The position numbers were made by a program, and so were the translations under genes. Source: Marilutibacter spongiae (lineage in GTDB: Bacteria > Pseudomonadota > Gammaproteobacteria > Xanthomonadales > Xanthomonadaceae). Taken from it: a DNA stretch of 64,000 nucleotides. Under the pieces are notes generated by a model. It searched no databases, was not told the DNA's origin, and was given only the letters and a program-made list of their open reading frames with translations. The DNA is taken from positions 1-64,000 of the forward strand of contig NZ_JACHTF010000013.1 in the NCBI RefSeq assembly GCF_014145325.1. The letters run 5' to 3'. Positions 9,765-26,873 of the stretch are shown in pieces (the stretch's first letter is position 1; every line of letters starts with the position of its first letter).

Positions 9765-9802
9765 TATGACGAAACTAACCTCCAGCCAAGCCCCCATGGG
9801 TC

Positions 9803-10354
9803 ATGAGCCCAAACCCGATGAGCGAATCCGAGCCCCTGTCCCCGATCGCCCGACGCTTCGTCCTGCACTGGGGCGAGATGGGCTCGCGCTGGGGCGTCAA
9901 TCGCAGTGTCGCGCAGATCCATGCGCTGCTGTTCCTGTCCGCGCGGCCCCTGCATGCCGAGGAGATCACCCAGGCGTTGGGCGTGGCCCGTTCCAACGTC
10001 AGCACCAGCCTGCGCGAACTGCTCAACTACAACCTGGTGCGCACGGTGCACCGGCTCGGCGACCGTCGCGACCATTTCGAGACGTCCAAGGACGTATGGG
10101 CGCTGTTCCGCACCGTGGTCGGCGAGCGCAAGGCGCGCGAGTTCGACCCCACCGTCGCCATGCTGGGCGAATGCATGGCCTCGCCGGAAATCGACGACGA
10201 ACCGCCCGAGGTGCGCGAGCGCATCCGCGACACCCTGGCGATGATGGGCGCGCTGTCGGCCTGGGGCGACGAGATGCTGCGGCTGGAACCGGCGACCCTG
10301 ATGAAGGTGATGAAGCTCGGCAGCCGCATCCAGAAACTGCTGCGCGACGGCTGA
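9803..10354 (+). CDS. GbsR/MarR-family winged-helix transcriptional regulator
   Basis: This 183-residue DNA-binding protein is of the GbsR type. The N-terminal part FVLHWGEMGSRWGVNRSVAQIHALLFLS and the helix-turn-helix EITQALGVARSNVSTSLRELLNYNLVR are characteristic, followed by a helical C-terminal half. It is divergently transcribed from the NDUFA9-like/ndh operon across a short gap that contains a perfect inverted repeat, so autoregulation and control of that operon are likely (inference). A second ATG at 9818 is an alternative start. Confidence 0.88.
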   Translation: MSPNPMSESEPLSPIARRFVLHWGEMGSRWGVNRSVAQIHALLFLSARPLHAEEITQALGVARSNVSTSLRELLNYNLVRTVHRLGDRRDHFETSKDVWALFRTVVGERKAREFDPTVAMLGECMASPEIDDEPPEVRERIRDTLAMMGALSAWGDEMLRLEPATLMKVMKLGSRIQKLLRDG

Positions 10355-10731
10355 TTGCGTCGAGGCTCAGGCGGAGTCGGTGTCTACGCGTGAGGTGCGG
10401 CGCGTGTCCGATATCCACACGCACACCGTCAGCGACACACCGATGCAGGCGGGCGCGCACCAGTAGAGCCCCTGTTCGATGCCTGCCTGCTCGAACTACA
10501 GCGCGACTTACTCGGCGGTGTCTGCTCGCATCCGGCAGTCTTGCCAAGGGTGGTGGCTTGCACGAGGGAGGTGATAGCGTGGCTCTCCAGATCAGGGGCC
10601 GACGATTCAAATGCAACCATATGTTGCCGGTGAGGTGGTGCAGGGTGTGGCTGTCTGATCCGTCGCATTCAATGAGGATGTGTTCCTCGATTAATTCATC
10701 GAGACCCTTCGGTAGCCAAGGAGCAAGGATC
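10355..10731. other. Intergenic stretch upstream of the metallopeptidase gene
   Basis: This 377-bp stretch has no intact gene. Its left part contains a short minus-strand frame that looks like a gene remnant; its right part drops in GC towards the AT-rich peptidase gene and ends with a good Shine-Dalgarno (aaggag, 10718-10723). I see no tRNA or recombination site. Confidence 0.6.
10367..10495 (-). pseudogene. Remnant of a small membrane-protein gene (weak)
   Basis: On the minus strand about 42 codons remain open, from just after an in-frame TAG to a TGA at 10367-10369. They encode a hydrophobic stretch (LYWCAPACIGVSLTVCVWI) and a polar tail. There is no start codon or ribosome site. It reads like the C-terminal end of a lost membrane protein, but could be chance. 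Confidence 0.25.
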
Positions 10732-11907
10732 ATGATCGGAATCAGATTGTTTTTTGTTGGTGTCTTGATGTTGTTTTCAATAAATGCAGTTGCAGCTGGG
10801 CGGCTTGAAGTGAATTTATATTATCCGGCTGACGCGCATGGATCTCGTCTGGATGCGGGGGCTGGCAAGGTTGAAGTTGTACTGTTGAATACGGGAGACC
10901 AATCTATTGATGTGGTCTTGCCGACGATCCCCAGTGTTACCGGCAATGGCTTCTTGACGAACAATCTTTTCGAAGTGATTGCAGATGACGGTGTTCGGGC
11001 AAGCTATATTGGCATCGACCTTGTCTCGGCGAGTTTGGAGGGGCCTTACGTAACGATTGCTCCCGGGGAAAGCCGGGTATATTTGGTGAGCATAAGAGAC
11101 AATTATCGGGTCCGGGCCGGCGGCAAGTATGATGTCAAGTTGCGTCCAGTACGTTACTTGAGGCGGCCTCGAGCAAGCTATATGCAAACGTCAGCACAGG
11201 ATATTCGCGCCTTGCTGTCGGAGTCTCAGCCCCAGCAAGTGTTGACGTTGTGGATCGATCCGCGTCTTGCTTCACCTTCGGGCATCAGCAGGCAATTATT
11301 GTTTGATGAGTCAGCTGAATGCGAAGATTGGCAGCTGAATGAGTTCGAGCATATTAAGGCCGCAGCAGCCTCACTGGCCAATGAAGCATTCTGGCATTAC
11401 AATGATTTGTTCGTGACGGAATGGCTGGGGATGCCGCCTTGGTTTACTTGGGAGTTCACTGCATCCCAGCGGTATACGAAATGGTTTGGAGTCGATCCAG
11501 TTGCAGACATGAATCAATGGGCTGAAGATGACTTGCTGCTTTATTCCACGTTGCAGGCCATTCCCGAGCGCATGGGTAGCGAGTTGGTGGCCGTAACCTG
11601 CCATTGCGAGGCTGGCAAGGATCGTCCGGATGCAATGGCATATATTCAACGTCCATATCACTACATAATAAATTCATGCCCTGCTTTCTGGCAGTCGCCA
11701 AGGGTGCCGACATTCAAAGACCAGCCGTCTCAAGTTGGCACTTTGATACATGAAGCAAGTCATTTTGAAGATTCATTGTCGTCGCCTGGCACGGAGCATC
11801 ATGCCGAGTTCTACGATAATGCATCAACATTGGCAGGGGTCAATCGCTCTTTGGCGATCCGAAATTCGAACACTTACAAGTTCTATGTGTTGAACCAGAG
11901 CTGGTAG
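10732..11907 (+). CDS. Secreted M35-like (aspzincin) metallo-endopeptidase
   Basis: This 391-residue predicted secreted zinc protease resembles the lysine-specific metallo-endopeptidase group. It has a signal peptide (about residues 1-22, ending AVAA), a beta-rich N-terminal region like those preceding bacterial M35 domains (PSVTGNGFLTNNLFEV), and a C-terminal catalytic domain with GTLIHEASHFED (HExxH) followed by GTEHHAEFYDNA. In aspzincins the third ligand is the Asp of GTxD; here that position is His (GTEH), a departure worth noting. The gene is far AT-richer than its neighbours, with many TT/TA-ending codons, suggesting recent transfer. Start supported by aaggag 8 nt upstream. Confidence 0.82.
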   Translation: MIGIRLFFVGVLMLFSINAVAAGRLEVNLYYPADAHGSRLDAGAGKVEVVLLNTGDQSIDVVLPTIPSVTGNGFLTNNLFEVIADDGVRASYIGIDLVSASLEGPYVTIAPGESRVYLVSIRDNYRVRAGGKYDVKLRPVRYLRRPRASYMQTSAQDIRALLSESQPQQVLTLWIDPRLASPSGISRQLLFDESAECEDWQLNEFEHIKAAAASLANEAFWHYNDLFVTEWLGMPPWFTWEFTASQRYTKWFGVDPVADMNQWAEDDLLLYSTLQAIPERMGSELVAVTCHCEAGKDRPDAMAYIQRPYHYIINSCPAFWQSPRVPTFKDQPSQVGTLIHEASHFEDSLSSPGTEHHAEFYDNASTLAGVNRSLAIRNSNTYKFYVLNQSW

Positions 11908-11987
11908 TCGGACGTGGCTGCACAGCCGGCGCGCAGATGTGAGCGACGATGCAGGTGCGTGGCGAGTGCAGGCGCCGCCCGCCGCCC

Positions 11988-12953
11988 TCATGCGACGCTG
12001 GCAATGTCCATGCGGTCGGCCAGCAGCACTTCCAGCTTGGCCTGATCCGCGGCGAAGCGGCGAATGCCGTCGGCCAGCTTGTCGGTGGCCATCGCGTCCT
12101 CGTTGTGCGCCCAGCGGAAGCGCGCCTCGTCCAGCGGCGCCGGCGGGGCCTTGCGCTCGCCATCGTCGACCAGGGCGCGGGCCACGTCGCCGCCGTCGGC
12201 GTCCAGCTCGCCCAGCAGGTCGGGCGAGATCGTCAGGCGGTCGCAACCGGCCAGGGCCAGCACCTGTCCGGTGTTGCGGAAGCTCGCGCCCATCACCACG
12301 GTGTCGTAGCCATGGCGCTTGTAGTACTGCCAGATGCGCGTCACCGACTGCACGCCCGGGTCGTCGGCCGGGTCCGCGGGCGGCGCCATGCCGTTGCCCA
12401 GGTGCCAGTCCAGGATGCGGCCGACGAAGGGCGAGATCAGGAACACGCCGGCCTCGGCGCACGCGACGGCCTGGGCGAAGGAGAACAGCAGGGTGAGGTT
12501 GCAGTGGATGCCCTCGCGCTCGAGCCGCTCGGCGGCGCGGATACCTTCCCAGCTCGCCGCGATCTTGATCAGCAGGCGCTCGCGGCCGATGCCGGCGTCG
12601 GCGTACAGGGCGACCAGCTTGCGCGCCTGCGCGAGCGTGGCCTCGGTGTCGAAACTCAGCCGCGCATCGACCTCGGTCGACACCCGTCCCGGGACCAGCT
12701 TCAGGATCTCGCCGCCGATCGCCACCGCCAGGCGGTCGCCGGCGTCGGCGATGCGCGTGGCCGCGTCGTCGCCGCGCGCGGACTCGAGCGCCTGGTCGAG
12801 CAGGGGCGCATAGGCCGGCAGCGCTGCGGCCTTGAGCAGCAGCGAGGGGTTGGTGGTGGCGTCGAGCGGCCTGAAGCGCGCGATCGCGTCGATGTCGCCG
12901 GTATCGGCGACCACGGCGGACAGGTCGCGCAGGTGCTGGAGCTTTGAGGTCAT
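11988..12953 (-). CDS. tal: Transaldolase
   Basis: This 321-residue enzyme of the non-oxidative pentose phosphate pathway transfers a dihydroxyacetone unit from sedoheptulose-7-phosphate to glyceraldehyde-3-phosphate. Visible TalB-type motifs are [13 protein letters not shown] near the N-terminus, the Schiff-base Lys in [40 protein letters not shown] and [24 protein letters not shown]. The start at [11 protein letters not shown] matches the family; upstream frame extension is GC-rich spurious sequence. It stands alone, convergent with the peptidase gene. Confidence 0.95.
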
Positions 12954-13929: not shown

Positions 13930-15942
13930 ATGCGTTTGAAGGCGATTGCACTGTGCGTGCTGGCGTGCGCGTGGACGGTATCGACCGCGCGTGCAGGGGG
14001 GGACCTGGACGCGTTCCTGCAGCGGGACGCGTTCGGCACGATCAAGGTCTCGCCCGACGGGCGGCATTACGCCGCCACCATGCCCATGGGCGATCGCACC
14101 GGCATGGTCATCATCGATCGCAAGGAACGGAGCTTCGTCTCCAAGGCCACGGGCGGCGTGGGCTCGGCAGTGGCCGATTTCTGGTGGATCGACGATGCGC
14201 GCGTTGTCATCGCCATGGCCGAGACCGAAGGCAGCGAGGCCATGCCGTACGTGACCGGCGACCTGTTCGTGTTCGATGTAGATGGCAACAAGGCCAGGAA
14301 CATCTTCGGCCGCCAGGTCGACCCCGGCATGACCGACCGCTACGGGCCCGCCACGCAACGACGCGACATGGCCACCCTGATCGATCCCCTGGTCGATGCG
14401 CCCGGCGAGGTCCTGGTCGCGGTGGCGCCGTTGAACAGTACGCCGCACACGCGCGTCGAACGTTTGCACATGCAATCCCGGCAGACCCGCGTCATTGCGA
14501 CGGCGCCGGTGTCGCGCGCGCACTTCACCGTCGACGCCGGCGCACACGTGCGTTTTGCGGAGGGTGCCGACGAGCGCAACTACCGCAAGCTCTTCTACCG
14601 GGTCGACGACGATGCCGACTGGCAACTGGTCAACGACGAAACATCGAGCGGGCAGGTGGTCTCGGCGATCGGCCTGTCCGCCGCGGGCGACGTCGCCTAC
14701 CTGCGGGTGCAGCAGGGCTCCGGCCCCGATGCGATCGAAGTGCTGGACGTGGCGACGCTCGAGCGCAAGCCGTTGCTGCGCGATGCCCATGTCGATCCGT
14801 ACGCCGTGCTCTATGATCGCGATGGCCGCACGCCAATCGGTGTGCAGTACATGGACGAAGGCGTCCGCAACCGCTTCTTCGACGAAGCCTCGCCGATGGC
14901 GCGTACCTATCGCGCGCTGGAGAAGTCGATGCCCGGCTCGGCGATCGACTTCACCTCCTTCAGCCGCGACGGCAACCTCGGCGTGCTGCGCGTGCGCAGC
15001 GACCGCGTGCGTGGCGACTATGCGCTGTTCGACATGGCGGCGCGCCGCGCCGACGGCATCTTCCGGTCGCACGAGTGGCTGTCGCCCGACGACCTGCCGC
15101 GGACCGCACGCATCGAACTCCGCGCGCGCGATGGCGTGGCGCTGCAGGGCTACCTCACGCGTCCGCCCGCCTGGACGTCGGGCGCCATGCCGATGGTGAT
15201 CGTTCCACACGGCGGCCCCTTCGGCGTCTTCGACGAATGGACGTACGATGCCGAGACCCAGCTCCTGGCCGCGGCGGGATACGCTGTGCTCCGGGTGAAT
15301 TTCCGCGGTTCGGGCAACTTCGGGCGGGCCTTCCGGCAACTGGGCGCGCGCGAGTGGGGCGGGACCATGCAGGACGACCTGACCGATGCCACCCGATGGG
15401 CGATCGACGAAGGCGTCGCCGATCCGGCGCGCGTGTGCATCTACGGCGCCAGCTACGGCGGATATGCTGCCCTGATGGGCGTGGCCCGGGACCCCGGCCT
15501 GTACCGATGCGCGGCCGGCTATGTCGGCGTCTACGACCTGGAGGCCAAGCATGCGAGCAACTCGCGTTACGCCGATTGGGCCCGCCACTGGTCGAACGAC
15601 TGGATGGGCTCGCGTTCGAGCCTGGAGGCGCGCTCGCCGGTGACGCTGGCCGGCTCGATCAAGGTGCCCGTCTTCCTTGCCGCGGGCGGGGCCGACCCGG
15701 TCGCTCCGCTTTCGCACAGCAGGCAGATGGAGCGCGCGCTCCGCCGTGCCGACGTGCCCGTGCAGACCCTCTACTACGACAGCGAGGGGCATGGCTTCGT
15801 CGACGATGCGCACCGGCGCGAGTTCTACGCCCGCCTGCTCGACTTCCTCGCCGATCACATCGGCGGCGAAAGGGCCGATCCGGCGGACGTGGCGCAGGCT
15901 CAGTCGCGGTCGGGTGCGCCCAGCGGGAACAGCGGCCGGTAG
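13930..15942 (+). CDS. S9-family (prolyl oligopeptidase-like) serine peptidase
   Basis: The 670-residue protein has a signal peptide (first ~22 residues, ending ARA), an N-terminal beta-propeller-like region and a C-terminal alpha/beta-hydrolase. The catalytic triad is visible: S508 in GASYGGYAALM, D589 in AGGADPVAP and H621 in SEGHGF. HGGPFGVFDEW and VLRVNFRGSGNFGRAF are typical S9 oxyanion-region motifs. It likely digests peptides in the periplasm. Its last 43 bp overlap the 3' end of the convergent GST gene. Confidence 0.92.
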   Translation: MRLKAIALCVLACAWTVSTARAGGDLDAFLQRDAFGTIKVSPDGRHYAATMPMGDRTGMVIIDRKERSFVSKATGGVGSAVADFWWIDDARVVIAMAETEGSEAMPYVTGDLFVFDVDGNKARNIFGRQVDPGMTDRYGPATQRRDMATLIDPLVDAPGEVLVAVAPLNSTPHTRVERLHMQSRQTRVIATAPVSRAHFTVDAGAHVRFAEGADERNYRKLFYRVDDDADWQLVNDETSSGQVVSAIGLSAAGDVAYLRVQQGSGPDAIEVLDVATLERKPLLRDAHVDPYAVLYDRDGRTPIGVQYMDEGVRNRFFDEASPMARTYRALEKSMPGSAIDFTSFSRDGNLGVLRVRSDRVRGDYALFDMAARRADGIFRSHEWLSPDDLPRTARIELRARDGVALQGYLTRPPAWTSGAMPMVIVPHGGPFGVFDEWTYDAETQLLAAAGYAVLRVNFRGSGNFGRAFRQLGAREWGGTMQDDLTDATRWAIDEGVADPARVCIYGASYGGYAALMGVARDPGLYRCAAGYVGVYDLEAKHASNSRYADWARHWSNDWMGSRSSLEARSPVTLAGSIKVPVFLAAGGADPVAPLSHSRQMERALRRADVPVQTLYYDSEGHGFVDDAHRREFYARLLDFLADHIGGERADPADVAQAQSRSGAPSGNSGR

Positions 15943-16559
15943 GGCCGGGCCTCGTCGACCGCCCGGGCGAACGAGGGGCGGGCCAGCAGTCGCCGGCGAT
16001 AGGCGTGCACGCGCTCGAAGGCCGGGTCGATCGGGTGCGACCAGTCGGCGTAGAACAGCGCGGGCGCCGCGGCGCAGTCGGCCAGGGTGAAGCGGTCGCC
16101 GATCGCCCATTCGCGGCCCTCCAGCTCGTGGTCCAGCCAGCGGTAGGCGGTCTCCAGCATGCGGCGCGCGTCGGCGACGCCCACCGGGTCGCGGTCGGGT
16201 TCGGCGCGCATGCGATCGAACACGAGCTTCTGCTGCGGCGTCGAGACGTAGTTGTCGAAGAAGCGGTCCAGCCGTCGCGCCTCCAGCGCGAGCCCGGGGT
16301 CGTCGGGCAGCAGCATGATCGGGCCGGGATGGTGCAGTTGCAGGTACTCGATGATGATCGTCGCCTCGGGCACCACGCGCGCGCCATCGCGCAGCAGCGG
16401 GAAGCGCTTGATCGGCCAGAACGCCTCGAACTCGCGCACATGCGACGGATGTTCCGGCGACAGCATGCGGAACTCGAACGGGGTGGCGTTCTCGTACAGG
16501 GCGACCAGCGCCTTCTGGCAGTACGACGAGAACGGGTGGGCGTAGAGCTGCAGGGTCAT
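15900..16559 (-). CDS. Glutathione S-transferase family protein
   Basis: The 219-residue protein has an N-terminal thioredoxin-like domain (MTLQLYAHPFSSYCQKALVAL; PLLRDGARVVPEATIIIEYL, the glutathione-contacting cis-Pro/Glu-Ala/Ser region) and an alpha-helical C-terminal domain (WAIGDRFTLADCAAAPALFY, the conserved N-capping box). The start at ATG 16559 has a strong ggagg 8 nt upstream. Substrate unknown. It converges on and overlaps the S9 peptidase gene. Confidence 0.9.
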   Translation of the reverse strand: MTLQLYAHPFSSYCQKALVALYENATPFEFRMLSPEHPSHVREFEAFWPIKRFPLLRDGARVVPEATIIIEYLQLHHPGPIMLLPDDPGLALEARRLDRFFDNYVSTPQQKLVFDRMRAEPDRDPVGVADARRMLETAYRWLDHELEGREWAIGDRFTLADCAAAPALFYADWSHPIDPAFERVHAYRRRLLARPSFARAVDEARPYRPLFPLGAPDRD

Positions 16560-16742
16560 GGGCGTGCCTCCGGGTTTATCTTGACGACGGATGGAGGGTG
16601 GCCATCTAGACACCCGGGCCGACGAACCTCATCGTCCGACACCATGATCGTGCCGCCTGCGAGGACGTGGCTCTTCATCGTGCACTGATACACTGGCGTC
16701 CCCGCGGGGGCAGGGGGCAGGGGGCAAGGGGCAGGGGACGTC

Positions 16743-17414
16743 ATGCAAGCGCAGTCGATCGAGTTCAATCCGGTACTGATCGTGGAGGACGATGCGGCGA
16801 CGCGCACTCGCCTGCTCCGGCTGATGCGCGATCTGGCCGGGGCGGCGGCACGCATCGATGCTGTGGCCGGGATGGTCGAGGCGCGCGAACACCTGCAGCG
16901 CCAACCATGTGCGCTGGCGCTGGTCGACGTGAACCTGCCCGACGGGAATGGCATCGACCTGGTCGCGTGGATTACCCGTCGTCTGGACGGCCCCTCGTCG
17001 GTGATCGTCTCGGCGTTCGCCGCGGAGGACACGATCCTGGCGGCGGTGCGGGCGGGAGCGATCGGCTACCTGCTCAAGGATCGCGACGACGAAGAGCTGA
17101 AGTCATCGCTCGAGAGTCTGCGGCGCGGCGGCGCGCCGATCGATCCACTGATCGCGCGGCGCATACTCGCGCTGGTGCCGCCGGCGCCCATGGACGCGAC
17201 GCCGTCGCCCGAATCCGCGCCGCCGCTGTCTGGACGCGAACACGAGATCCTGCGCCTCGTGGCCCGGGGCTTCAGCAACCGCGAGATCGCCGACCTGCTG
17301 GCTTTGTCCCGACTCACCATCGAATGCCATACCAAGAACATCTACCGCAAGCTTTCCGTGGGCTCGCGCACCTCGGCGGTGTTCGAGGCGCGCGCGCTGG
17401 GTCTACTCGACTGA
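16743..17414 (+). CDS. NarL/FixJ-type response regulator
   Basis: The 223-residue regulator has a receiver domain (pocket LIVEDDAAT; acceptor D62 in LALVDVNLPDGNG; IVSAFAAED; Lys in GYLLKDRDDEE) and a LuxR-type helix-turn-helix at about 160-205 (LSGREHEILRLVARGFSNREIADLLALSRLTIECHTKNIYRKL). It is followed directly by a sensor kinase of the matching class, so the two form a two-component pair. Downstream genes in the same direction (MACPF protein, trimeric autotransporter) are candidate targets. Confidence 0.93.
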   Translation: MQAQSIEFNPVLIVEDDAATRTRLLRLMRDLAGAAARIDAVAGMVEAREHLQRQPCALALVDVNLPDGNGIDLVAWITRRLDGPSSVIVSAFAAEDTILAAVRAGAIGYLLKDRDDEELKSSLESLRRGGAPIDPLIARRILALVPPAPMDATPSPESAPPLSGREHEILRLVARGFSNREIADLLALSRLTIECHTKNIYRKLSVGSRTSAVFEARALGLLD

Positions 17415-17467
17415 ACCCGGCACGCGCCGTCGCTGCGCGACGCCAGTGTCGCCGATGGTGCCGGCTC

Positions 17468-19270
17468 GTGATCGCATTGCTGGTTCTTGCCACGGCCGGC
17501 GTCGCGGCGGGAGCGGAGCCAGGGGTGACCGTGCTCGATCGTGGCGAGGCTGCGCGCTCGACCTGGCACGCCGAGGTGCCGCCGGCCTCCGGGTGGGTCC
17601 AGGTGACGTTGATGGACCTGTGGCAGGAGCGCTGGCCCCGCCATGACGGGGTGGTCTGGTATCGCCTGCACTGGCACCAGGACGATCCGCTCCGGCCGAC
17701 CGCGCTGCTTGCCGACTACATGAGCATGAGTGGCGCGGTCTACGTCAACGGGCAGGCGGTGGCGCGCGATCCCAGCCTCGTGGAACCACTGTCGCGCACC
17801 TGGCATTCCCCGCACTATGCGCTGCTCCCGCCGGCGCTGCTGCGCGCGGGCGAGAACACCGTGTGGCTGCGGGTTTCCGGCATGGCCGCCTACCAACCCG
17901 GTGCGGGCGCGGTACGCGTAGGCGATCCGCACGCGCTGCAGCAGCGCTACCTCGGCGAACGGTTCCAGCGCTACGACATCAAGCTCATCAACCTGGCGAT
18001 GGCGGTGGTCCTGGGGGGCGTATTCCTGCTGGTGTGGTTGTTGCGCACCAAGGACAGCGTCTATGGCTGGTTCGCGTTGACCGAACTGGCAGGCGCCCTG
18101 TATGGCTACAACCACATCGCCATCACGACCTGGCCCTTGCCGGGCACCGACGCCTGGCAGGCATTCAATGCCGCGTTCTACGTGGTCGCGGCGGCCTCGT
18201 ATGCCCTGTTCCTGCTCCGGTACTGCGAGCGCCACCATCGGCGAACCGAGCGTGCGCTGGGCGTGCTCGCGGCGGCGGCACTGCTCTCGGCGGCATTGGC
18301 GCCCGCCTGGATGGGGCACCATCGCAACCTGTGGTTCGCCGCCGGTGGCCTGTGCTACTACGCCGCCATTGCCTGGTTCCTGCTGCAGGCCTGGCGCAGC
18401 AAGCGACCCGACGCCCTTGTACTGGCCGCTTGCCTGTTGCTGCCGGTGCTGGTGTCGTTCCACGATTTCGCGCTCTTCTTTGGCTGGGTGGAGGGCACCA
18501 CCTATTGGCTCAGCCTGACCTCGGTGTTGACCCTGGTGGGCATCGGATTCGTGCTTTCCTACCGTTTCGTGACCGCGATGCGGCGCGTGGAAGGCTTCAA
18601 CCGGGAGCTCAGGCGCGAGGTCGATGCGGCCACCGGCGAGCTGGCCGCGACGCTGTCGCGGCAGCATGCGCTGGAGCTCGCGCACGGTCGGGCGGGAGAA
18701 CGCCTGCAATTGGTGCGCGACCTGCACGATGGCTTTGGCGGCACCCTGGTCGCGACGATCGCGCAACTGGAGGCGGCGCCCGAGGAGACTCCGAAGCACC
18801 GGCTCGTCGCGATACTGCGTGACCTGCGCGACGACCTCCGCCTGGTGATCGACAGTACCGCGCGCGAACATGCGGACCTGCTCGCGCAGGTGGCCCCCTT
18901 GCGACATCGCCTCGCCCGCCTGACGGAGAACGCCGGCGTCGACCTTCGCTGGCACTTGCTGGACCTGGAGGGAGTCGAGCTGGACAGTGCCCGTACCCTC
19001 GACCTGCTGCGGCTCTTGCAGGAGGCCCTGGCCAATGCCCTCAGGCACAGTGGCGCGCGCCGGGTCGACGTCAGGTTGAGACGGGTCGGCGCGATGTTGC
19101 AGGTCAGCATCGAGGACGATGGCCGCGGCCTCGGCGGGACCGCCCTCCCCGGCAGCGGCGCTGGCATGGCCAGCATGCGCCTGCGCGCGCAGCGCCTCGG
19201 TGGCGCGCTGCACATCGTGTCGGGGCAGGCAGGCACGGCGCTGCACGTGCGCGTGCCCGTCCCGGCCTGA
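17468..19270 (+). CDS. 7TM sensor histidine kinase (7TMR-DISM-like, HisKA_3/NarX class)
   Basis: This membrane sensor pairs with the preceding regulator. Order of parts: hydrophobic N-terminal signal, a ~170-residue extracytoplasmic beta domain (VVWYRLHW; YMSMSGAVYVNGQAVARD; NTVWLRVSG) like those ahead of 7TM-DISM modules, about seven membrane segments (residues ~175-380), a short coiled coil, the HisKA_3 box LQLVRDLHDGFGGTL (H420) and a HATPase with N523 (EALANALRHSG) and EDDGRGL. GTG 17468 gives 600 residues. A rare CTG at 17411 overlapping the regulator's stop (CTGA) would add a basic n-region and make a better signal peptide, so the true start is uncertain. Confidence 0.88.
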   Translation: MIALLVLATAGVAAGAEPGVTVLDRGEAARSTWHAEVPPASGWVQVTLMDLWQERWPRHDGVVWYRLHWHQDDPLRPTALLADYMSMSGAVYVNGQAVARDPSLVEPLSRTWHSPHYALLPPALLRAGENTVWLRVSGMAAYQPGAGAVRVGDPHALQQRYLGERFQRYDIKLINLAMAVVLGGVFLLVWLLRTKDSVYGWFALTELAGALYGYNHIAITTWPLPGTDAWQAFNAAFYVVAAASYALFLLRYCERHHRRTERALGVLAAAALLSAALAPAWMGHHRNLWFAAGGLCYYAAIAWFLLQAWRSKRPDALVLAACLLLPVLVSFHDFALFFGWVEGTTYWLSLTSVLTLVGIGFVLSYRFVTAMRRVEGFNRELRREVDAATGELAATLSRQHALELAHGRAGERLQLVRDLHDGFGGTLVATIAQLEAAPEETPKHRLVAILRDLRDDLRLVIDSTAREHADLLAQVAPLRHRLARLTENAGVDLRWHLLDLEGVELDSARTLDLLRLLQEALANALRHSGARRVDVRLRRVGAMLQVSIEDDGRGLGGTALPGSGAGMASMRLRAQRLGGALHIVSGQAGTALHVRVPVPA

Positions 19271-19397
19271 GCCGCGCGCGTCGCTACCCGGTTTCGGGGA
19301 TGTCGCGGCCATCGGTGCCGACGCATCGTGGGTGGGTGATCACGCGCGCGCACGGCACGCGTTGGGTCTTGTGTCCCCATGCAGGAAGGAGCTTGCA

Positions 19398-22300
19398 ATG
19401 TCTGCCAACAAGGTGCCGCCCCCCTCCAGCGCGAACCAGGACCTCTCAAGCGACCTGGAGGAGCTCAAGTCGTTCCTCGCCTCGCGTCTGGTCGGCCCTT
19501 TCTTCGGCCTGCTGATATCGCAGCAGGTGGATTCACTGGACGCATTCGCCGCGTTGATCAAGGTGTCCGACCTGAAGGCTTCCTTGCGAGAGGCCTTCAA
19601 GCGGACCGTCGTGGACCCTACCCCCGACCCGTCACCCGGCAAGGACGACGCATCGGGATCGCAGATCCCCAGCGAGGGAAAGGCGCGCCCGGCGCCTTCC
19701 AGGAAGACGGCGCGGGCCGAGGCGGTCGTGGAGGACGCCGCACTGCCGGCCGGCTACCGGGCCGCGCTTGCTGCGTTCGACGCACTTGACGGCGACGCTA
19801 TCGATGGAGACGTCAAGGCGTTCCGCAAGGCGCGCGAGCCGGCTTCGGCGCCTCTGCAGCGGCAGCGCTACGAGGCCACGACGGAACTCAAGGAGTATCT
19901 GTCCCAAGAGGGCTTGCCCTCGGCCAGCGTGCCCATGTTCGAGGAGCATGGCGTCTACTCGGTCCAGTCCCTGCAGGATCTGTGCGGCGATCCCGGGCGC
20001 CGGGATGCCCTGGAGGCCGACCTGCGCAAGGGCGCCGTGATCGACGGACGCAGCTTTCCCGGTTCCGATAGCGCCGCCAACCTGCTCAAGAAGCTTTCCG
20101 CCGACGACGTGGCGGCGCGCTCGAAGCCGTCGATCCAGGCCGACAGCGTCATGTCCGAGCAGGCGCAGGCGCGCCGCAAGCGGGTAGAAGAGGCGATCGC
20201 CAAGGTCGAGGAGCTTCGCGCTGCCTGTGCCGCCGATGCCAGCGCCGACATGGCGACGCTGAAGAAGCGCGCCGAAGCAGAGCTGGGCGCGATGCTCGAG
20301 CGTGCCGGGGTGGACGGTGCATTGGCGCGATTGGAAAAGGGTGCCTTCGCCACCCGGGGGACGTTGACCGACACGCTGGCCGACATCGGCAGGGACCTCG
20401 GCGAGGCCGTGGGCAAGGACGTGCTGGCCGCGCAGCGCAAGGAGGCGTCGCTGTCGAACGACGCGCTCGTCGAGTACAACGATCTGCGTCGCGGCGTCTT
20501 GCTCAGCGTGGCCGGCGTGCGCGATGCCTGCGGCCCGGAGCTGGTGGACGTGGCCGCGAGCGTGAGCTACAGCAACGAAGGCTATCGCGAGAGTATCGCG
20601 CAGTTCGAGAGCGAATCCGCCTACCAGTACGCGGAGAAGACGGTCGAACGGTCGTCCTCGGCATTCTCCACCTCCGAACGCGCCAGTGGAGGCGGTATCG
20701 GCCAGGCCGGGCTGTTCGCGCTGAGCATGGCCGGCTCCCATGCGCGCGCCCGGTACGCACAGAAGGAGTCCACCACGGCTGGGCGGCGTAGCCAGGCCAA
20801 CAAATTCGCGGTGCGGAAGATCGAACTCACCTGCGCGCGCGTGCGCTTGCCGTCCGTTGGGGCTCGGCTGACGCGCGCCGCCACCGTCGCGGTGGCACGC
20901 ATCGCCGCCGAAGCCGACGAGCAACGGGCGCAGGCGCTCGCCCGGGGGTTCATCGAGGAATTCGGCAGCCACCTGTTCCGGGAAACCAGGCTGGGAGGCT
21001 GTTACAAGACCGTGGTAAAGGCCGAGGCGCTCGCCGAAGACGGTATCGGGGTGTTGTCCCGGGCGGCGAGCCTGGCGACGGGCTGGAAAGCATCCGGCGC
21101 GGCCACCTACGTGGGCCTCAACTTCATGGGCAGTGCTGCGACGGCCAACGAGGGCGAGAAGGCGGAGGCCGAGGGCTTCAGCAAGGACGAGCGGAAGCAG
21201 CTCAAGTCAGTGCGCGTCGACATAAGCTCGCACGCCGTGGGCGGCCTGCCGGGGCTCCCTGCGGACCTGTGGAAGCACAGCCTGGGCAAGAACCATGGGT
21301 GGAGGGTCGTCGACCGGCTGCGCCCCGTCGGCGTGTGGACGCTGCTGGCCGATGCGATCGTCGACGGCTTGAGCGATGCGCAGAAGGACCGTGTGGCCCG
21401 GCTGCTGGAACGCAGTTGGGTACGCGACTTCTTCCTGCCCGAACTGTTGGCGCTGGATCCGGAACTCGCGCAGCACGATGCGTTGGCGCATGCCGATTCC
21501 GTGGAGGGACTGGTGGCGGCGGTCGAGCTGTTGATGCGTCCACCGCCGCTGCACGTGTGCTGTTTCCGCAAGACCTTCGACGCCAGCAGGACCCGGCGTG
21601 CCGCGCTGGAGCTTCCCGAACATTACAAGATCCTCTCCGGCGGCGTACGCACGCTGCAGACGGTGGAAGGGAATTTCGTCGTCTCCAGCTACCCAAGCTA
21701 CGACCCGACGCTGGCACGCTGGGCCTGGCACGCGGAGATGCGCGACATCAAGTTCGCCTCGAGCGAGGAGCACGAAATCACGGTCGTCGCAGTGTACGAC
21801 CCCGAAGACGAGTGGGACGTCCGCCTGTTCGGTCGTCGGACCCAGGGCACGGCCACGTCCCAATCGCTGCATGTGGACGTGGAGACCGGGTACCTGGTGA
21901 CCGGCGGCGGCGGCCAGATCGACCGCTTTGGTTGGGCCGTGCTGACGCAGTGCGGGTTCGACCTTGCGTCCGATGTCCAGGCCAGGGCCATGCCCGGCCC
22001 TGGCTTTCGCGTGGCCTCGCGCAGTTGCCTGAAGGAATCCGAGCACGTGCTGACGGGGATTGCCATTGGCCTGCGACCGCGCAACGGTACCCGCCTGGCG
22101 CCCCTCTACCTCCACCAGACGGCGAAGGCCTGCGCGCATCCGGACGTGCACCTGGCGCGGCCCGATCGCCACGAGCGATTCCTCGGCGGTGGCGTCCGAT
22201 TGCATCCGGACGTCGACAACTTCCTGCTGGGTTCATCTCCGGTCTTCGACGACGCGTCCGGTGTGTCCGGCTGGCGGGCCGCGTCCAAGGACCACGAGCA

Positions 22301-22547
22301 CGGCGCTCCCGCCAGCATGACGGTGACCCTGGTCGGCGTGGCCAACGCCGACGTCCTCCTCCACGTACCCAAGGGCGCAGCCGTGGTGCGCGAGGACCCG
22401 GCCCAGGTGTGCCTGGCGTGTGGTCATGTGGGGCCTTGGACCGAAGTGCCGGTTGGCGTGACGATCCCGATCTCCATCGGCAAGGCCCAGGCCGAATATC
22501 TTTTCTGTTGCGCCGCTTGCCGGACGGTCATGCGGAAAGGCGCGTAG
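19398..22547 (+). CDS. MACPF-domain protein with three beta-prism-like C-terminal repeats and a terminal CxxC pair
   Basis: The 1049-residue protein has the MACPF signature FIEEFGSHLFRETRLGGCY (518-536, the 'GTH...lGG' motif) inside a domain of roughly 395-655. That domain starts LLSVAGVRDACG, has two Gly/Ala/Ser-rich stretches where membrane-inserting helices normally lie (~425-450 and ~545-585), and closes with SSHAVGGLPG and RPVGVWTLLAD. The N-terminal 395 residues are mostly helical and charged, with no signal peptide. Three related modules begin near 745, 832 and 928 (sGGGv..., later W-x-A-x-x-KD), resembling the beta-prism after Plu-MACPF. The C-terminus has C1005-x2-C1008 and C1038-x2-C1041. 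MACPF proteins form pores or attach to membranes; the target here is unknown. Start has an aaggagc-like ribosome site. Confidence 0.85.
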   Translation: MSANKVPPPSSANQDLSSDLEELKSFLASRLVGPFFGLLISQQVDSLDAFAALIKVSDLKASLREAFKRTVVDPTPDPSPGKDDASGSQIPSEGKARPAPSRKTARAEAVVEDAALPAGYRAALAAFDALDGDAIDGDVKAFRKAREPASAPLQRQRYEATTELKEYLSQEGLPSASVPMFEEHGVYSVQSLQDLCGDPGRRDALEADLRKGAVIDGRSFPGSDSAANLLKKLSADDVAARSKPSIQADSVMSEQAQARRKRVEEAIAKVEELRAACAADASADMATLKKRAEAELGAMLERAGVDGALARLEKGAFATRGTLTDTLADIGRDLGEAVGKDVLAAQRKEASLSNDALVEYNDLRRGVLLSVAGVRDACGPELVDVAASVSYSNEGYRESIAQFESESAYQYAEKTVERSSSAFSTSERASGGGIGQAGLFALSMAGSHARARYAQKESTTAGRRSQANKFAVRKIELTCARVRLPSVGARLTRAATVAVARIAAEADEQRAQALARGFIEEFGSHLFRETRLGGCYKTVVKAEALAEDGIGVLSRAASLATGWKASGAATYVGLNFMGSAATANEGEKAEAEGFSKDERKQLKSVRVDISSHAVGGLPGLPADLWKHSLGKNHGWRVVDRLRPVGVWTLLADAIVDGLSDAQKDRVARLLERSWVRDFFLPELLALDPELAQHDALAHADSVEGLVAAVELLMRPPPLHVCCFRKTFDASRTRRAALELPEHYKILSGGVRTLQTVEGNFVVSSYPSYDPTLARWAWHAEMRDIKFASSEEHEITVVAVYDPEDEWDVRLFGRRTQGTATSQSLHVDVETGYLVTGGGGQIDRFGWAVLTQCGFDLASDVQARAMPGPGFRVASRSCLKESEHVLTGIAIGLRPRNGTRLAPLYLHQTAKACAHPDVHLARPDRHERFLGGGVRLHPDVDNFLLGSSPVFDDASGVSGWRAASKDHEHGAPASMTVTLVGVANADVLLHVPKGAAVVREDPAQVCLACGHVGPWTEVPVGVTIPISIGKAQAEYLFCCAACRTVMRKGA

Positions 22548-22834
22548 CGGCAAGCGAGCAGGCGGTACCCCGGCGGCGATGCGTGTCCCGGAGCGGAGTC
22601 CGGCCGCGACTGGCCATGCGCGCCCTCGTCCCCGGGCGTCCAGCCACTTCGCGAGAACGCGGTCGGATGCGGCATGCCGCGGGCGATGGCTGCATCGGCG
22701 TAGCGGTGCAGGGGCCTGGCGCTACCTGATTTCGGCGATGCGGGCCGCCCCGCTGGCGCGTAACGTCCCGGCATTCCGCTTGGGGGGATCAACCTTTGGA
22801 ACCTCTCGGCGTCGGTCACGAGCGAGGGATCTCC

Positions 22835-24547
22835 ATGTCGAAACCATCTGCCCGGGCGCTGTGCCCACTTGCGCTTGCCATCGTCCTGTCGGTGGGCAGC
22901 ATGATCACGCCGGTGGTCGCCGGCACCACCTGCGACTTGCTCGATGCCTCCGGTACCCCGGCGGGCGACGGAGGCGCCGACGCGGGCGACGATACTGACC
23001 AGGCGAACGCATTGGCCTGCGGCCCGGGTGCGGTCGCGACCGGAGCGGGGTCCGCGGCGCTGGGCGACGCCAGCCGGGCGTCGGGCGCGCGTAGCGTGGC
23101 GGTGGGCAGTGATTCGGTGGCCGGTGCCGACGACACGGTCTCGCTGGGTCACGGCGCACGTGACCTCGACGCGCTGGGCGACCCGTTCGGGAGCGATCTC
23201 GATCGCCGTCCGACCCACCTGGCCGACGGCGTCGACGCCACCGATGCGGTCAACCTGCGCCAGCTCAACGCGGCGATGGCCGCAAGCGGATCGCCCTACT
23301 TCGCCATCGGCGCGGCCGCCAGCGACATCGGCACCGCCGACGCGCAAGCCCCTCGCCTGGGATCGATCGCGATCGGCAGTAACGCCATGGCCAATACCAG
23401 CGGGAACAACTACGGCATCGCCATCGGCGCGGCCAGCCAGGCCCAGGGCTACAGCTCGATTGCCATCGGGCCGGTGGCGACCACGACGTCTTCCGCGTTC
23501 GGATCGGTGGCCATTGGCCTGTATGCCGTGGCTGGGGAGAGTGGGGTCGTGTCCTTCGGGCACGCGGCCGGCGATTCGGTCTTTCTGCCCGGGAGTGGCA
23601 CCACCATCACGTTCGACACCGAGCAGACGCGCCGGCTCCTCCACGTGGCGGCTGCCGAAGGCGATACCGACGCGGTCAACCTGTCGCAGCTGCATCCGCT
23701 GGCCGCGGCGCTGGGCGGCGGCGCGAGCTACGCGAGTGGCATTCTCACACCGCCATCCTACGCCATCCAGGGGGCCCGCTACTCCAACGTCGGTGACGCC
23801 TTGGCCGCCGTGGACACCCGCCTTGGCCAGCTGCAGGCGAGTATTGACGACATCGCGACCGCCCCCGGTCCGCAGGGGCCCGAAGGACCGGCAGGACCGG
23901 CAGGACCAGCAGGACCGGCAGGACCCGCCGGCCCGGGCAGCGAGCTCGCGGTCGAATACGACGGCAGCGACGCCGGATCGATCACCTTGGAGGGCGTCGG
24001 AGGCACGGTGATCTCCAATGTCGCAGACGGCACCGCGGCACGCGATGCCGTGAACAAGGGACAGATGGATGCCGCCGATGCCGGAGTGCTGGCCTCCGCG
24101 GGCAACTATACGAACGCGCGGGAAGCCGCGATACGCGACGACATGGCCGCCGGCGATGCGGCCACGTTGCAGGTGGCGCAGACCTATGCCCGGTCGGCGG
24201 CCGACGGTGCGCTGCAAGCGGCCAATACCTATACCGACAGCCAGATGGCCGTGCTCAATGATCGTTTCGAAGCGCTGTCCAGCGACGTGGATGCGCGCTT
24301 GCGCGGCCAGGACCGCCGCCTGGACCGGATAGGCGCGATGGGGGGCGCGATGGCGGCAGCCGCGCTGAATACCGCTGGACTGTCGGGCCGCAATCGCATC
24401 GGTGTCGGCGTGGGCTCGCAGGGCGGCGAGAGTGCGTTCGCCATGGGCTACCAGCGCGTGTTCGGTGAGCGTGTGAGCCTCTCGCTTTCGGCCGGCTTTT
24501 CCGGCGACGAAAGCAATGTGTCAGCGGGTGCCGGCTTCAGCTGGTAG
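22835..24547 (+). CDS. Trimeric autotransporter adhesin (YadA-like) with collagen-like segment
   Basis: The 570-residue surface protein has a signal peptide (about 1-30), YadA-head repeats (SVAVGSDSVAG, SIAIGSNAMANTS, SIAIGPVAT, SVAIGLYAVAG), neck/HIM motifs (DATDAVNLRQL, DTDAVNLSQL, ARDAVNKGQM), a 24-residue collagen-like (Gly-x-y)n segment at 345-368 (GPQGPEGPAGPAG...), a coiled-coil stalk and the C-terminal YadA anchor, four beta-strands ending in W. The family trimerises in the outer membrane. It follows the MACPF gene by 287 bp in the same direction, with gagg before the ATG. Short for the family; a compact adhesin or a display stalk. Confidence 0.92.
   Translation: MSKPSARALCPLALAIVLSVGSMITPVVAGTTCDLLDASGTPAGDGGADAGDDTDQANALACGPGAVATGAGSAALGDASRASGARSVAVGSDSVAGADDTVSLGHGARDLDALGDPFGSDLDRRPTHLADGVDATDAVNLRQLNAAMAASGSPYFAIGAAASDIGTADAQAPRLGSIAIGSNAMANTSGNNYGIAIGAASQAQGYSSIAIGPVATTTSSAFGSVAIGLYAVAGESGVVSFGHAAGDSVFLPGSGTTITFDTEQTRRLLHVAAAEGDTDAVNLSQLHPLAAALGGGASYASGILTPPSYAIQGARYSNVGDALAAVDTRLGQLQASIDDIATAPGPQGPEGPAGPAGPAGPAGPAGPGSELAVEYDGSDAGSITLEGVGGTVISNVADGTAARDAVNKGQMDAADAGVLASAGNYTNAREAAIRDDMAAGDAATLQVAQTYARSAADGALQAANTYTDSQMAVLNDRFEALSSDVDARLRGQDRRLDRIGAMGGAMAAAALNTAGLSGRNRIGVGVGSQGGESAFAMGYQRVFGERVSLSLSAGFSGDESNVSAGAGFSW
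23885..23929 (+). repeat. 9-bp tandem repeat coding the collagen-like GPA units
   Basis: Five consecutive 9-mers (ggaccggca, ggaccggca, ggaccagca, ggaccggca, ggacccgcc) encode Gly-Pro-Ala units in the trimeric autotransporter. In-frame 9-bp units can change copy number without breaking the frame. Confidence 0.85.
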
Positions 24548-24584
24548 TGCACGCGATCGGTCCGGCTGATTGAGCGCCGCGGCG

Positions 24585-26873
24585 TCAGTACAGGTCGATC
24601 GGGTCGACGTCGAGCGACCAGCGCACCTTGCGCGCCTCCGGCGCGGCGTGGATGGCGGGCAATGCGCCATCGAGCACGGCATGCAGGTCGCGGCGGCTGG
24701 CGGCCGACAGCAGCAATTGCACGCGCTGGTAACCGGCCCGTCGCGGCATGGGGGCGGGGATCGGCCCCTGGACTTCGAACGGCGCATCGCGCGCCGTCGG
24801 CATGCACGCCTCGAACGCGGAACGCGCCATGCGCAGGAAGGCTTCGGCGACCTCGACCTGGCGCGCCTCCGCGCGCAGCATCGCCATGTGCGAGAAGGGG
24901 GGGAACGCGGCCGCTTCGCGCTGCGGCAACTCCGCATCGGCGAAGGCGGCATAGCCGCCGCCCAGCAGGGTTTCCAGCAGGGGATGGCCGGGGTGGTGGG
25001 TCTGTAGCAGCACTTCGCCGGGCCGCTCGGCGCGCCCGGCGCGGCCGGCGACCTGGATCAGCAACTGCGCGAGCTTCTCCGGCGCACGGAAATCGGCACT
25101 GAACAAGCCCTCGTCGATGCCGACCACGGCGACCAGGGTCAGCCCGGCGATGTCGTGGCCCTTGGCCAGCATCTGCGTGCCGACCAGGATGCCGGGCGCA
25201 TCGCCGAACTCGGCCAGCAGGCGTTCCATGGCATCGCGGCGCTGGGTGCTGCCGCGGTCGATGCGCAGTACCGGGGTATCGGGGAAGCGCGCCTTGAGTG
25301 CGTCCTCGATGCGCTCGGTGCCGGCCCCCTGCGGTTGCAACGCCAGTCCGCCACAGTCCGGGCAGGCGTCGGGCACGCGCTGGCGCGCGCCGCAGTGGTG
25401 GCACTGCAGGCGCCGGCCGCCGCCGTGCACGGTCATCGGCGTGCCATGCAAGGGCGTGCTGCAGCGCGGGCACTGCGCGCTCCAGCCGCAGTCGTGGCAC
25501 AACAGCACCGGGGCATAGCCGCGCCGGTTCTTGAACACCAGCACCTGGCCGCCGGCCTCGAGCGCCTGGTCGATGGCGGCCAGCATTTCCGGCGACAGGC
25601 CGGCCTCGAGCGGGCGCTTGCGCACGTCGACGACCCGCACCCGCGGTGGGCGGGCGTTGCCGGCGCGCTCGCGCAGGCGCAGGTGCGCATAGCGGTCGGC
25701 GCGCGCGTTGCGCAGGGATTCCAGCGAGGGCGTGGCACTGCCGAGCACGACCGGCACGTCCAGCGCCTTGCCGCGTACCAGGGCGAAGTCGCGGGCGTGG
25801 TAGCGGATGCCGTCGAGCTGCTTGAAGCTGCCGTCGTGCTCCTCGTCGACGACGATCAGGCCGGCATCCGGCAGGGGCAGGAAGATCGCCGAGCGCGTGC
25901 CGACCACCACGCGGGCTTCGCCGCGCGCCGCCGCCGCCCAGACCCGCGCCCGCTCGCCGTCGGCGAGGCCGGAATGCAGCGCATGCACCGATACGCCCAG
26001 GCGGCTGCGGAAGCGCGCCAGGGTCTGCGGGGTGAGGCCGATCTCGGGGACCAGGACCAGCGCCTGCCGGCCGCGCGCCAGGCAGTCGGCGATCGCATGC
26101 AGGTAGACCTCGGTCTTGCCGCTGCCGGTTACCCCGTCCAGCAGGAAGGGGTGGAAGCGGCCGGCGCTCGCGAGGATCGCGTCCACCGCGGCCTGTTGCC
26201 CGTCATTGAGCACGGGCCCCGGCGTGGGCTCGGGGACGCGCAAGGACGGGGCGATCGCCACGCGCTCGGCGTACCCGCGCTGGGCCAGGCTGCGCGCGGC
26301 GGCGCGCCAGCCGTCGAGGTGGCCCGGTGCGCCGGCATCCTCCAGTCGGTCTTCGCCGACGCCGATGCCCGGATCCGGCGCGTCCAGGAGGCGGGCGGCC
26401 AGTCGCGCCGGCTTGCCCTGGCGCAGGCCGGGCAGGGCGGTGGCCCCGGCCTCGGTCAACCGCCAGGCCCAGGTGCGGGTGTCGGGCAGTGTTTCGCCGT
26501 GCCGCAACGGGCCGGGTAGCGCGGTGGCGAGGACTTCGCCCAGCGGCGCATGGGTGTAGCGGGCCAGCCAGCGCAGGGAGGCGAGCAGCTCGTCGCGAAA
26601 CAAGGGGGCGTCGTCGATTCGTGCCAGCACCCGCTTGGGCTCGGCGACCGCGGCCTCCAGCGGCCCGGTCGCCACGACCACCCCGACCTTCTCGCCCGAA
26701 CGCCCGAACGGGACCAGCACCCGGCAGCCCACCGGGTCGCCCGGGACCGCCCCGTCGGCGGGCGGCAGGTAGTCGAACAGGCGGGGCAGGGGGACCGGCA
26801 GGGCGACCCGCCAGGCCAGGGCGTCCGGTCCGGGGGGCGCGTCGGCGCGGGCGTCGGCAGGGGGCTGGGGCAT
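24585..26873 (-). CDS. priA: Primosomal protein N' (replication restart helicase PriA)
   Basis: The 762-residue helicase reloads the replisome at stalled forks. The N-terminal DNA-binding domain begins WRVALPVPLPRLFDYLPP; the helicase core has Walker A GVTGSGKT (247-254), DEEH and GSATPSLES; the zinc-binding cysteines are in CHDCGWSAQCPRCSTPL and CHHCGARQRVPDACPDCGG; GTQMLAKGHD and QVAGRAGRAERPGEVLLQT are later helicase motifs. Length is normal. It is transcribed away from a control region containing DnaA boxes. Confidence 0.97.
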   Translation of the reverse strand: MPQPPADARADAPPGPDALAWRVALPVPLPRLFDYLPPADGAVPGDPVGCRVLVPFGRSGEKVGVVVATGPLEAAVAEPKRVLARIDDAPLFRDELLASLRWLARYTHAPLGEVLATALPGPLRHGETLPDTRTWAWRLTEAGATALPGLRQGKPARLAARLLDAPDPGIGVGEDRLEDAGAPGHLDGWRAAARSLAQRGYAERVAIAPSLRVPEPTPGPVLNDGQQAAVDAILASAGRFHPFLLDGVTGSGKTEVYLHAIADCLARGRQALVLVPEIGLTPQTLARFRSRLGVSVHALHSGLADGERARVWAAAARGEARVVVGTRSAIFLPLPDAGLIVVDEEHDGSFKQLDGIRYHARDFALVRGKALDVPVVLGSATPSLESLRNARADRYAHLRLRERAGNARPPRVRVVDVRKRPLEAGLSPEMLAAIDQALEAGGQVLVFKNRRGYAPVLLCHDCGWSAQCPRCSTPLHGTPMTVHGGGRRLQCHHCGARQRVPDACPDCGGLALQPQGAGTERIEDALKARFPDTPVLRIDRGSTQRRDAMERLLAEFGDAPGILVGTQMLAKGHDIAGLTLVAVVGIDEGLFSADFRAPEKLAQLLIQVAGRAGRAERPGEVLLQTHHPGHPLLETLLGGGYAAFADAELPQREAAAFPPFSHMAMLRAEARQVEVAEAFLRMARSAFEACMPTARDAPFEVQGPIPAPMPRRAGYQRVQLLLSAASRRDLHAVLDGALPAIHAAPEARKVRWSLDVDPIDLY

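Follow-up and report, generated by a model that had tools for sequence, protein, structure and literature searches.

A NarL-type two-component system as the predicted common switch of a divergent MACPF protein and a trimeric autotransporter adhesin in Marilutibacter spongiae

We analysed a 64,000-nucleotide stretch of the Marilutibacter spongiae genome (bases 1-64000 of contig C4, 3.63-Mb genome; hereafter the window). It carries consecutive genes for a NarL/FixJ-type response regulator (RR), a 7TMR-DISM sensor histidine kinase (HK), a MACPF protein and a YadA-type trimeric autotransporter adhesin (TAA). The MACPF and TAA genes are both preceded by an element of two inverted heptamers separated by 2 bp, TACCYGR-TT-TCGGSGA (the 7-2-7 site), and comparison across the bacterial family suggests that RR-HK switches both genes through it. 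We assign a probability of about 0.6 to the whole explanation, a sensor-switched adhesin together with an outward-acting MACPF protein. Its regulatory part is very likely, judging from the comparative data, and outward membrane attack by the MACPF protein is slightly short of an even bet. The parts of the block are as follows.

16743..17414, plus strand: NarL/FixJ-type RR, 223 aa (Response_reg 4.7e-18, GerE 1.3e-16; orthologues lie 5' of the kinase)
17468..19270, plus strand: 7TMR-DISM sensor HK, 600 aa (Pfam domains; GTG start uncertain)
19285..19300, plus strand: predicted 7-2-7 RR site of the MACPF promoter, TACCCGG-TT-TCGGGGA (shared-site comparison)
19324..19329, plus strand: predicted -10 of the MACPF promoter, CATCGT (identical in all four MACPF loci)
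19398..22547, plus strand: MACPF protein, 1049 aa (profile and signature evidence)
22723..22738, plus strand: predicted 7-2-7 RR site of the TAA promoter, TACCTGA-TT-TCGGCGA (shared-site comparison)
22761..22766, plus strand: predicted -10 of the TAA promoter, TAACGT (1 base nearer the site than in the MACPF promoter, likewise in L015 and L017)
22835..24547, plus strand: YadA-type TAA, 570 aa (YadA_stalk, YadA_anchor)

The original prediction had described a co-directional regulator, 7TM kinase, 1049-residue MACPF protein and YadA-like adhesin; these coordinates, and gaps of 127 bp (HK-MACPF) and 287 bp (MACPF-TAA), were confirmed, and all four genes are intact. By its receiver and LuxR/GerE domains, the RR falls in the NarL/FixJ family. 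The HK is classified as a 7TMR-DISM histidine kinase by Pfam matches to 7TMR-DISM_7TM (1.1e-10, aa 174-366) and HATPase_c (4e-11), with HisKA_3 narrowly below threshold (23.4 vs 24 bits); its start is most likely the GTG at 17468. The TAA has a type Vc architecture as judged by its YadA stalk (9.4e-23) and C-terminal anchor (1.4e-09), with a weak YadA_head match, and its trimeric state and adhesion role are putative. It is the sole YadA_anchor match in the genome.

Both intergenic gaps contain the pattern TACCYGRTTTCGGSGATG, for which the expectation in shuffled sequence was 0.04, a post hoc value since the pattern was first spotted by eye. When up to 2 mismatches were allowed, the MACPF and TAA sites were the only ones in the whole genome. 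Under the same limit, 22 sites were recovered in 15 of 20 genomes, compared to none in the reversed control. The 2.5 kb upstream of the window kinase contained no such site (again at up to 2 mismatches), so that autoregulation of the RR via this element is unsupported.

To describe the promoter context, 41 sites were aligned. One was too short, and leaving out near-duplicates brought the other 40 down to 35. Of these 35 sites, 29 have A at position +40 and 29 have T at position +44, as against at most 11 (A) and 16 (T) elsewhere in the interval +18 to +94. These two columns played no part in site selection; the binomial values attached to them ignore relatedness. They are spaced like positions 2 and 6 of a -10 hexamer (AnnnT), which places the centre of the 7-2-7 site 31 bp upstream, at about -43.5. 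According to PMC9314961, NarL activates from one 7-2-7 site located 32 bp upstream of the -10 and centred at -44.5, and PMC4549865 gives the napF and yeaR sites at -40 to -49 and -38 to -47. The element near -43 lies at a known NarL activation position and is predicted to be bound by the RR. No match resembling a consensus sigma-70 promoter and none resembling a terminator was found in 16500-24900 (shuffle means 0.5 and 3.0, respectively). The former is expected for activator-dependent promoters; the latter means that some transcriptional read-through between the block genes may occur. A single operon was nevertheless rejected as the main interpretation, since MACPF and TAA each have their own site and -10, and these separate predicted promoters point to a regulon instead.

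Among known systems, some of the closest are NarX/NarL promoters of E. coli that have just one 7-2-7 site (ogt derivatives, napF, yeaR). According to the two studies cited above, they share NarL-type domains, inverted heptamers and a 2-bp spacer with the present system. The distance from site to -10 is about 31 bp (MACPF) and 30 bp (TAA) here, versus 32 bp at E. coli ogt1052 (PMC9314961). The systems differ in that the kinase sensor here is 7TMR-DISM and the predicted targets are adhesin, MACPF and surface genes, whereas those of E. coli are respiration genes. The heptamer is also different, TACCYGR here and TACCCCT in the E. coli narG site.

We then looked at the neighbourhood of the kinase in 395 genomes of the family. 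The kinase or a close homologue (E<=1e-40) is present in 45 of them, and all 45 loci were read, including two partial or distant ones (G268, G053). The gene following the kinase encodes a TAA in 17 loci and a MACPF protein in only 4. Accordingly, RR-HK-TAA appears to be the widespread unit, and MACPF a lineage-restricted part confined to the window and three orthologues; either one lineage gained MACPF between its kinase and adhesin genes, or other lineages lost it. Of 21 TAA proteins scanned (the 17 together with those of the window, L015, L017 and the divergent L102), 18 matched YadA_stalk and 15 YadA_anchor; several of these open reading frames (ORFs; alignment A3) are called short.

In 28 of the 45 loci, including 17/17 with a TAA next and 4/4 with MACPF next, a 7-2-7 site lies between -40 and +600 relative to the kinase stop. 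None of the 17 site-less loci has either gene next; eight have an opposite-facing priA-like gene instead, and in L118 the contig ends. In L126, a 2-mismatch site begins barely beyond the +600/-40 limit. L102, where the TAA is divergent, has a 2-mismatch site that moves with the TAA. Two loci show further arrangements: behind the kinase and site of L121, an RCC1-repeat protein with a He_PIG domain occupies the position of the adhesin (L121:7093-10464), and in L100 a second site copy precedes a 490-aa gene with no Pfam match just 3' of the adhesin gene (L100:8756-10338).

The exact pattern TACCYGDTTTCRKGGAT occurs 28 times in 25 of the 395 genomes, and its reversed control does not occur. The kinase is present in 24 of these 25 genomes, compared to 45/395 overall (Fisher 5.4e-25). 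Because site-kinase linkage and common ancestry inflate this value, genes unlinked to the kinase provide a better test. A gene encoding a PI-PLC-X domain and a ricin-type lectin is found in 4/5 kinase-positive but 0/15 kinase-negative genomes of one genus (Fisher 0.001), and in 0/2 kinase-positive genomes of another genus. In all four copies, the site lies 73-77 bp before the start and is accompanied by the -10's A/T pair. It also precedes autotransporter genes of G228 and G099 that resemble each other at their starts, again unlinked to the kinase; in the G228 copy it lies 440 bp before the called start, without the A/T pair. In G228 and G062, a 318-aa gene is preceded by the site, at a distance of about 80 bp, and followed by a 218-aa gene. 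These unlinked genes are:

L159:4742-6157, L162:4624-6054, L164:5886-7328 and L207: PI-PLC-X/ricin-type lectin genes (Pfam on the L159 copy, from G228, only)
L160:6481-10365 and L197:2316-6014: large secreted proteins with an upstream site (only L160, from G228, scanned: autotransporter beta-domain and He_PIG)
L161:4942-5898 and L163:4993-5949: 318-aa genes (no significant Pfam match for the L161 copy)

Among the remaining sites, one is near a contig end (G278, L198), one precedes a 267-aa gene without Pfam match (G097, L165), and that of L158, inside a kinase gene, was judged to be due to chance.

MACPF itself is matched in 13 of the 395 genomes, the window's included. Full-length orthologues with 63-66% identity were found in G019, G141 and G189. 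RR-HK lies immediately 5' of MACPF in all three, HK and MACPF being 127, 127 and 128 bp apart, and a TAA lies 3' in two; in G189 (Lysobacter sp. Root76, locus L016) MACPF follows the kinase and a priA-like gene takes the place of the TAA. The orthologous loci span two genera. A search of genome contigs with the single protein returned no relatives, and one with alignment A1 returned four named loci. In 369 genomes of the class, a profile search gave only the window's genome and one weak, short match (G742). Among seven genomes of the same genus, three have MACPF and four a kinase orthologue; G093, G119 and G160 lack the block at the corresponding place, and G065 has RR-HK-TAA at another place, without MACPF.

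Seven genomes, G189 and other Lysobacter, encode a shorter MACPF subfamily in other surroundings (L018-L024; 848-863 aa, 31-34% identity). Since no site lies within 400 bp upstream of these paralogues, even at 4 mismatches, we did not count them in the regulon. Weak partial matches in G022, G137 and G209 (E 1e-4 to 1e-6) were excluded from A1, and the neighbourhoods of two of them were read (L025, L026). The original prediction had proposed such a comparison of MACPF neighbourhoods: the association with the sensory pair was retained in every orthologue and that with the adhesin in two of three, and neither extended to the paralogues.

The MACPF protein consists of N-terminal helical parts, a MACPF domain with approximate limits of aa 370-690, a beta-rich C-terminal part (about aa 715-990) and a Cys-containing tail. 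Taken alone, it stays below the Pfam cut-off (16 vs 21.5 bits, E 0.014); among the 11 aligned members, PF01823 matches every one at E<=1, with a best value of 5.2e-10. The MACPF/CDC signature is [YW]-G-[TS]-H-[FY]-x6-G-G or close to it. In all 11 sequences, F-G-S-H-x-F-x4-L-G-G is invariant, F replacing the usual Y/W. By profile and signature, we therefore class the protein as a divergent member of the MACPF/CDC superfamily. Its best PDB profile match is pleurotolysin B (E 0.0059), from which it differs, as from other MACPFs, by low similarity, the extra N-terminal helices, another C-terminal part and the tail. In a low-confidence model, the C-terminal part is similar to the C-terminal domain of PCSK9, at 8% identity and with module 2 undetected as a repeat; the likeness is one of fold, with no functional link implied. 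A match of the C-terminal profile to a Kelch design was rejected as the sum of six insignificant repeats. With the Bacteroides MACPFs (Bth-MACPF, BSAPs; see also PMC12853789) the protein shares a bacterial MACPF domain followed by accessory C-terminal domains, though the accessory parts differ, and those proteins carry lipoprotein signal peptides according to PMC2954219, whereas none is apparent here.

Taken together, these results suggest the following scheme. The 7TM kinase would sense an external cue and phosphorylate the NarL-type regulator, a dimer of which would bind the 7-2-7 site centred near -43. We infer that the bound regulator acts as an activator and not a repressor, at two separate promoters without consensus -35, that of MACPF and that of the adhesin. 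The expected products are a protein for attachment and, alongside it, a pleurotolysin/perforin-like MACPF protein. The latter, presumably after export, would most probably target the membrane of the object to which the cell adheres, putatively by forming pores. Sequence comparison supports the gene set with its conserved order, the site common to both promoters, the -10 at a near-fixed distance, and the joint occurrence of this site with the kinase. The original claim that a sensory pair switches on adhesin and MACPF thus gains good comparative support, from the shared sites, the -10, the co-occurrence and the unlinked genes. Two corrections apply to it: the separate predicted promoters suggest a regulon more than one operon, and the widespread unit is RR-HK-TAA. 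The purposes that it proposed (predation, antagonism, host contact) are possible ones.

Several observations weigh against this scheme. At up to 3 mismatches, the window's genome gives 4 matches and the reversed control 3. The window TAA site is inexact, and the -10 that goes with it deviates by one base from the usual spacing. Among the 28 kinase loci with a site, seven have another or unresolved next gene (L103, L104, L105, L107, L114, L117 and L121), and the inflation of the co-occurrence statistics has been mentioned. No RR, HK or TAA lies beside the seven MACPF paralogues, nor beside L025 or L026, and in G019 the kinase orthologue is divided between two frames (L015:11778-13606), by sequencing error or decay. 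The AlphaFold2 model of the MACPF protein is poor (mean predicted local distance difference test, pLDDT, 46.8). Export of the protein is unexplained, since no signal peptide is apparent and the sheath gene VipB (PF05943) was not found in any of the 4 MACPF genomes, with a positive E. coli control and other type VI secretion system parts not searched. Export by that system is therefore not supported.

These points bear on four other explanations. The site could serve a different regulator or an alternative sigma factor, RR-HK being a mere neighbour with other duties. One exact site does occur in a kinase-negative genome (G204), and loci L092-L095 keep the kinase with neither site nor TAA adjoining. 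However, the G204 site (L196) lies inside an ABC-transporter gene and was judged to be due to chance, and the genomes of L092-L095 have their sites elsewhere, before unlinked genes (G015, G062, G228) or the PI-PLC gene (G240). The inverted 7-2-7 layout is also that of NarL-type sites (PMC4549865), and we regard another reader of the site as quite improbable. Chance juxtaposition of four unrelated genes facing the same way is hardly credible: the block is missing from three of the seven genomes of the genus and the paralogues are located elsewhere, yet order and HK-MACPF spacing are kept in 3/3 orthologous loci from two genera, and the promoter layout is shared.

The two others accept or leave aside the switch and concern the MACPF protein. 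If it were a membrane-binding or adhesive surface protein, the set would be an attachment regulon. Most site-bearing genes are indeed adhesins or autotransporters, and the modelled PCSK9-like C-terminal part would be a binding module. The invariant signature and the match to pleurotolysin B, a pore former, argue in the other direction, as does the PI-PLC/lectin gene, which suggests membrane-active functions; we consider a merely membrane-binding or adhesive role unlikely. Action inside the producer, for example to lyse the cell itself, for defence or to let other proteins out, would accord with the lack of an apparent signal peptide and of VipB. Against it, the switch is common to an outer-membrane adhesin and other surface genes, and bacterial MACPFs outside Bacteroides are without lipoprotein signal peptides according to PMC2954219, so that a missing signal peptide is not unusual; we judge this role improbable. 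Our preferred explanation remains co-regulation of the adhesin with a MACPF protein directed outwards.

A broader and more tentative extension is a contact regulon of Lysobacteraceae, in which one NarL-type switch, to be recognised by the 7-2-7 site and its positioned -10, might run the adhesin and exchangeable effectors, membrane-active proteins thus being produced only on sensing a surface or prey. The effectors would be MACPF here, the PI-PLC/ricin-type lectin in Lysobacter, and classical autotransporters or the RCC1-repeat protein elsewhere. For the window's MACPF family, a switch, a site at base-pair level and partner genes are now predicted. Used as a genome probe, the site retrieves surface genes and phospholipase-lectin genes that are unlinked to the kinase in genomes encoding it, and might reveal which products these bacteria co-express on contact. 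The cue could be approached through the external domain of the kinase. Should the MACPF protein indeed attack membranes, attachment and a membrane-attack protein would be under one sensor. Searches of an open-access library gave no paper on Lysobacter and MACPF and none on 7TMR-DISM with a trimeric autotransporter. By their titles and abstract openings, PMC10538546, PMC9491525, PMC5387305 and PMC6418236 concern two-component control of trimeric autotransporter adhesins, with other regulators and hosts, and mention neither a MACPF gene nor the arrangement of the window.

The block is preceded by an S9 peptidase gene (13957-15942, Pfam) and followed by an opposite-facing gene (24585-26873) that we take to be priA. 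Elsewhere in the window, an ORF on the plus strand (9766-11907) ends in an aspzincin (M35) metallopeptidase domain and probably starts later than called; its G+C is low (about 0.52 over 10500-11999, against about 0.70 in the surroundings). On the minus strand, 39478-40653 encodes an LPMO_10 protein that also has a GbpA_2 domain and may be a surface protein directed at chitin.
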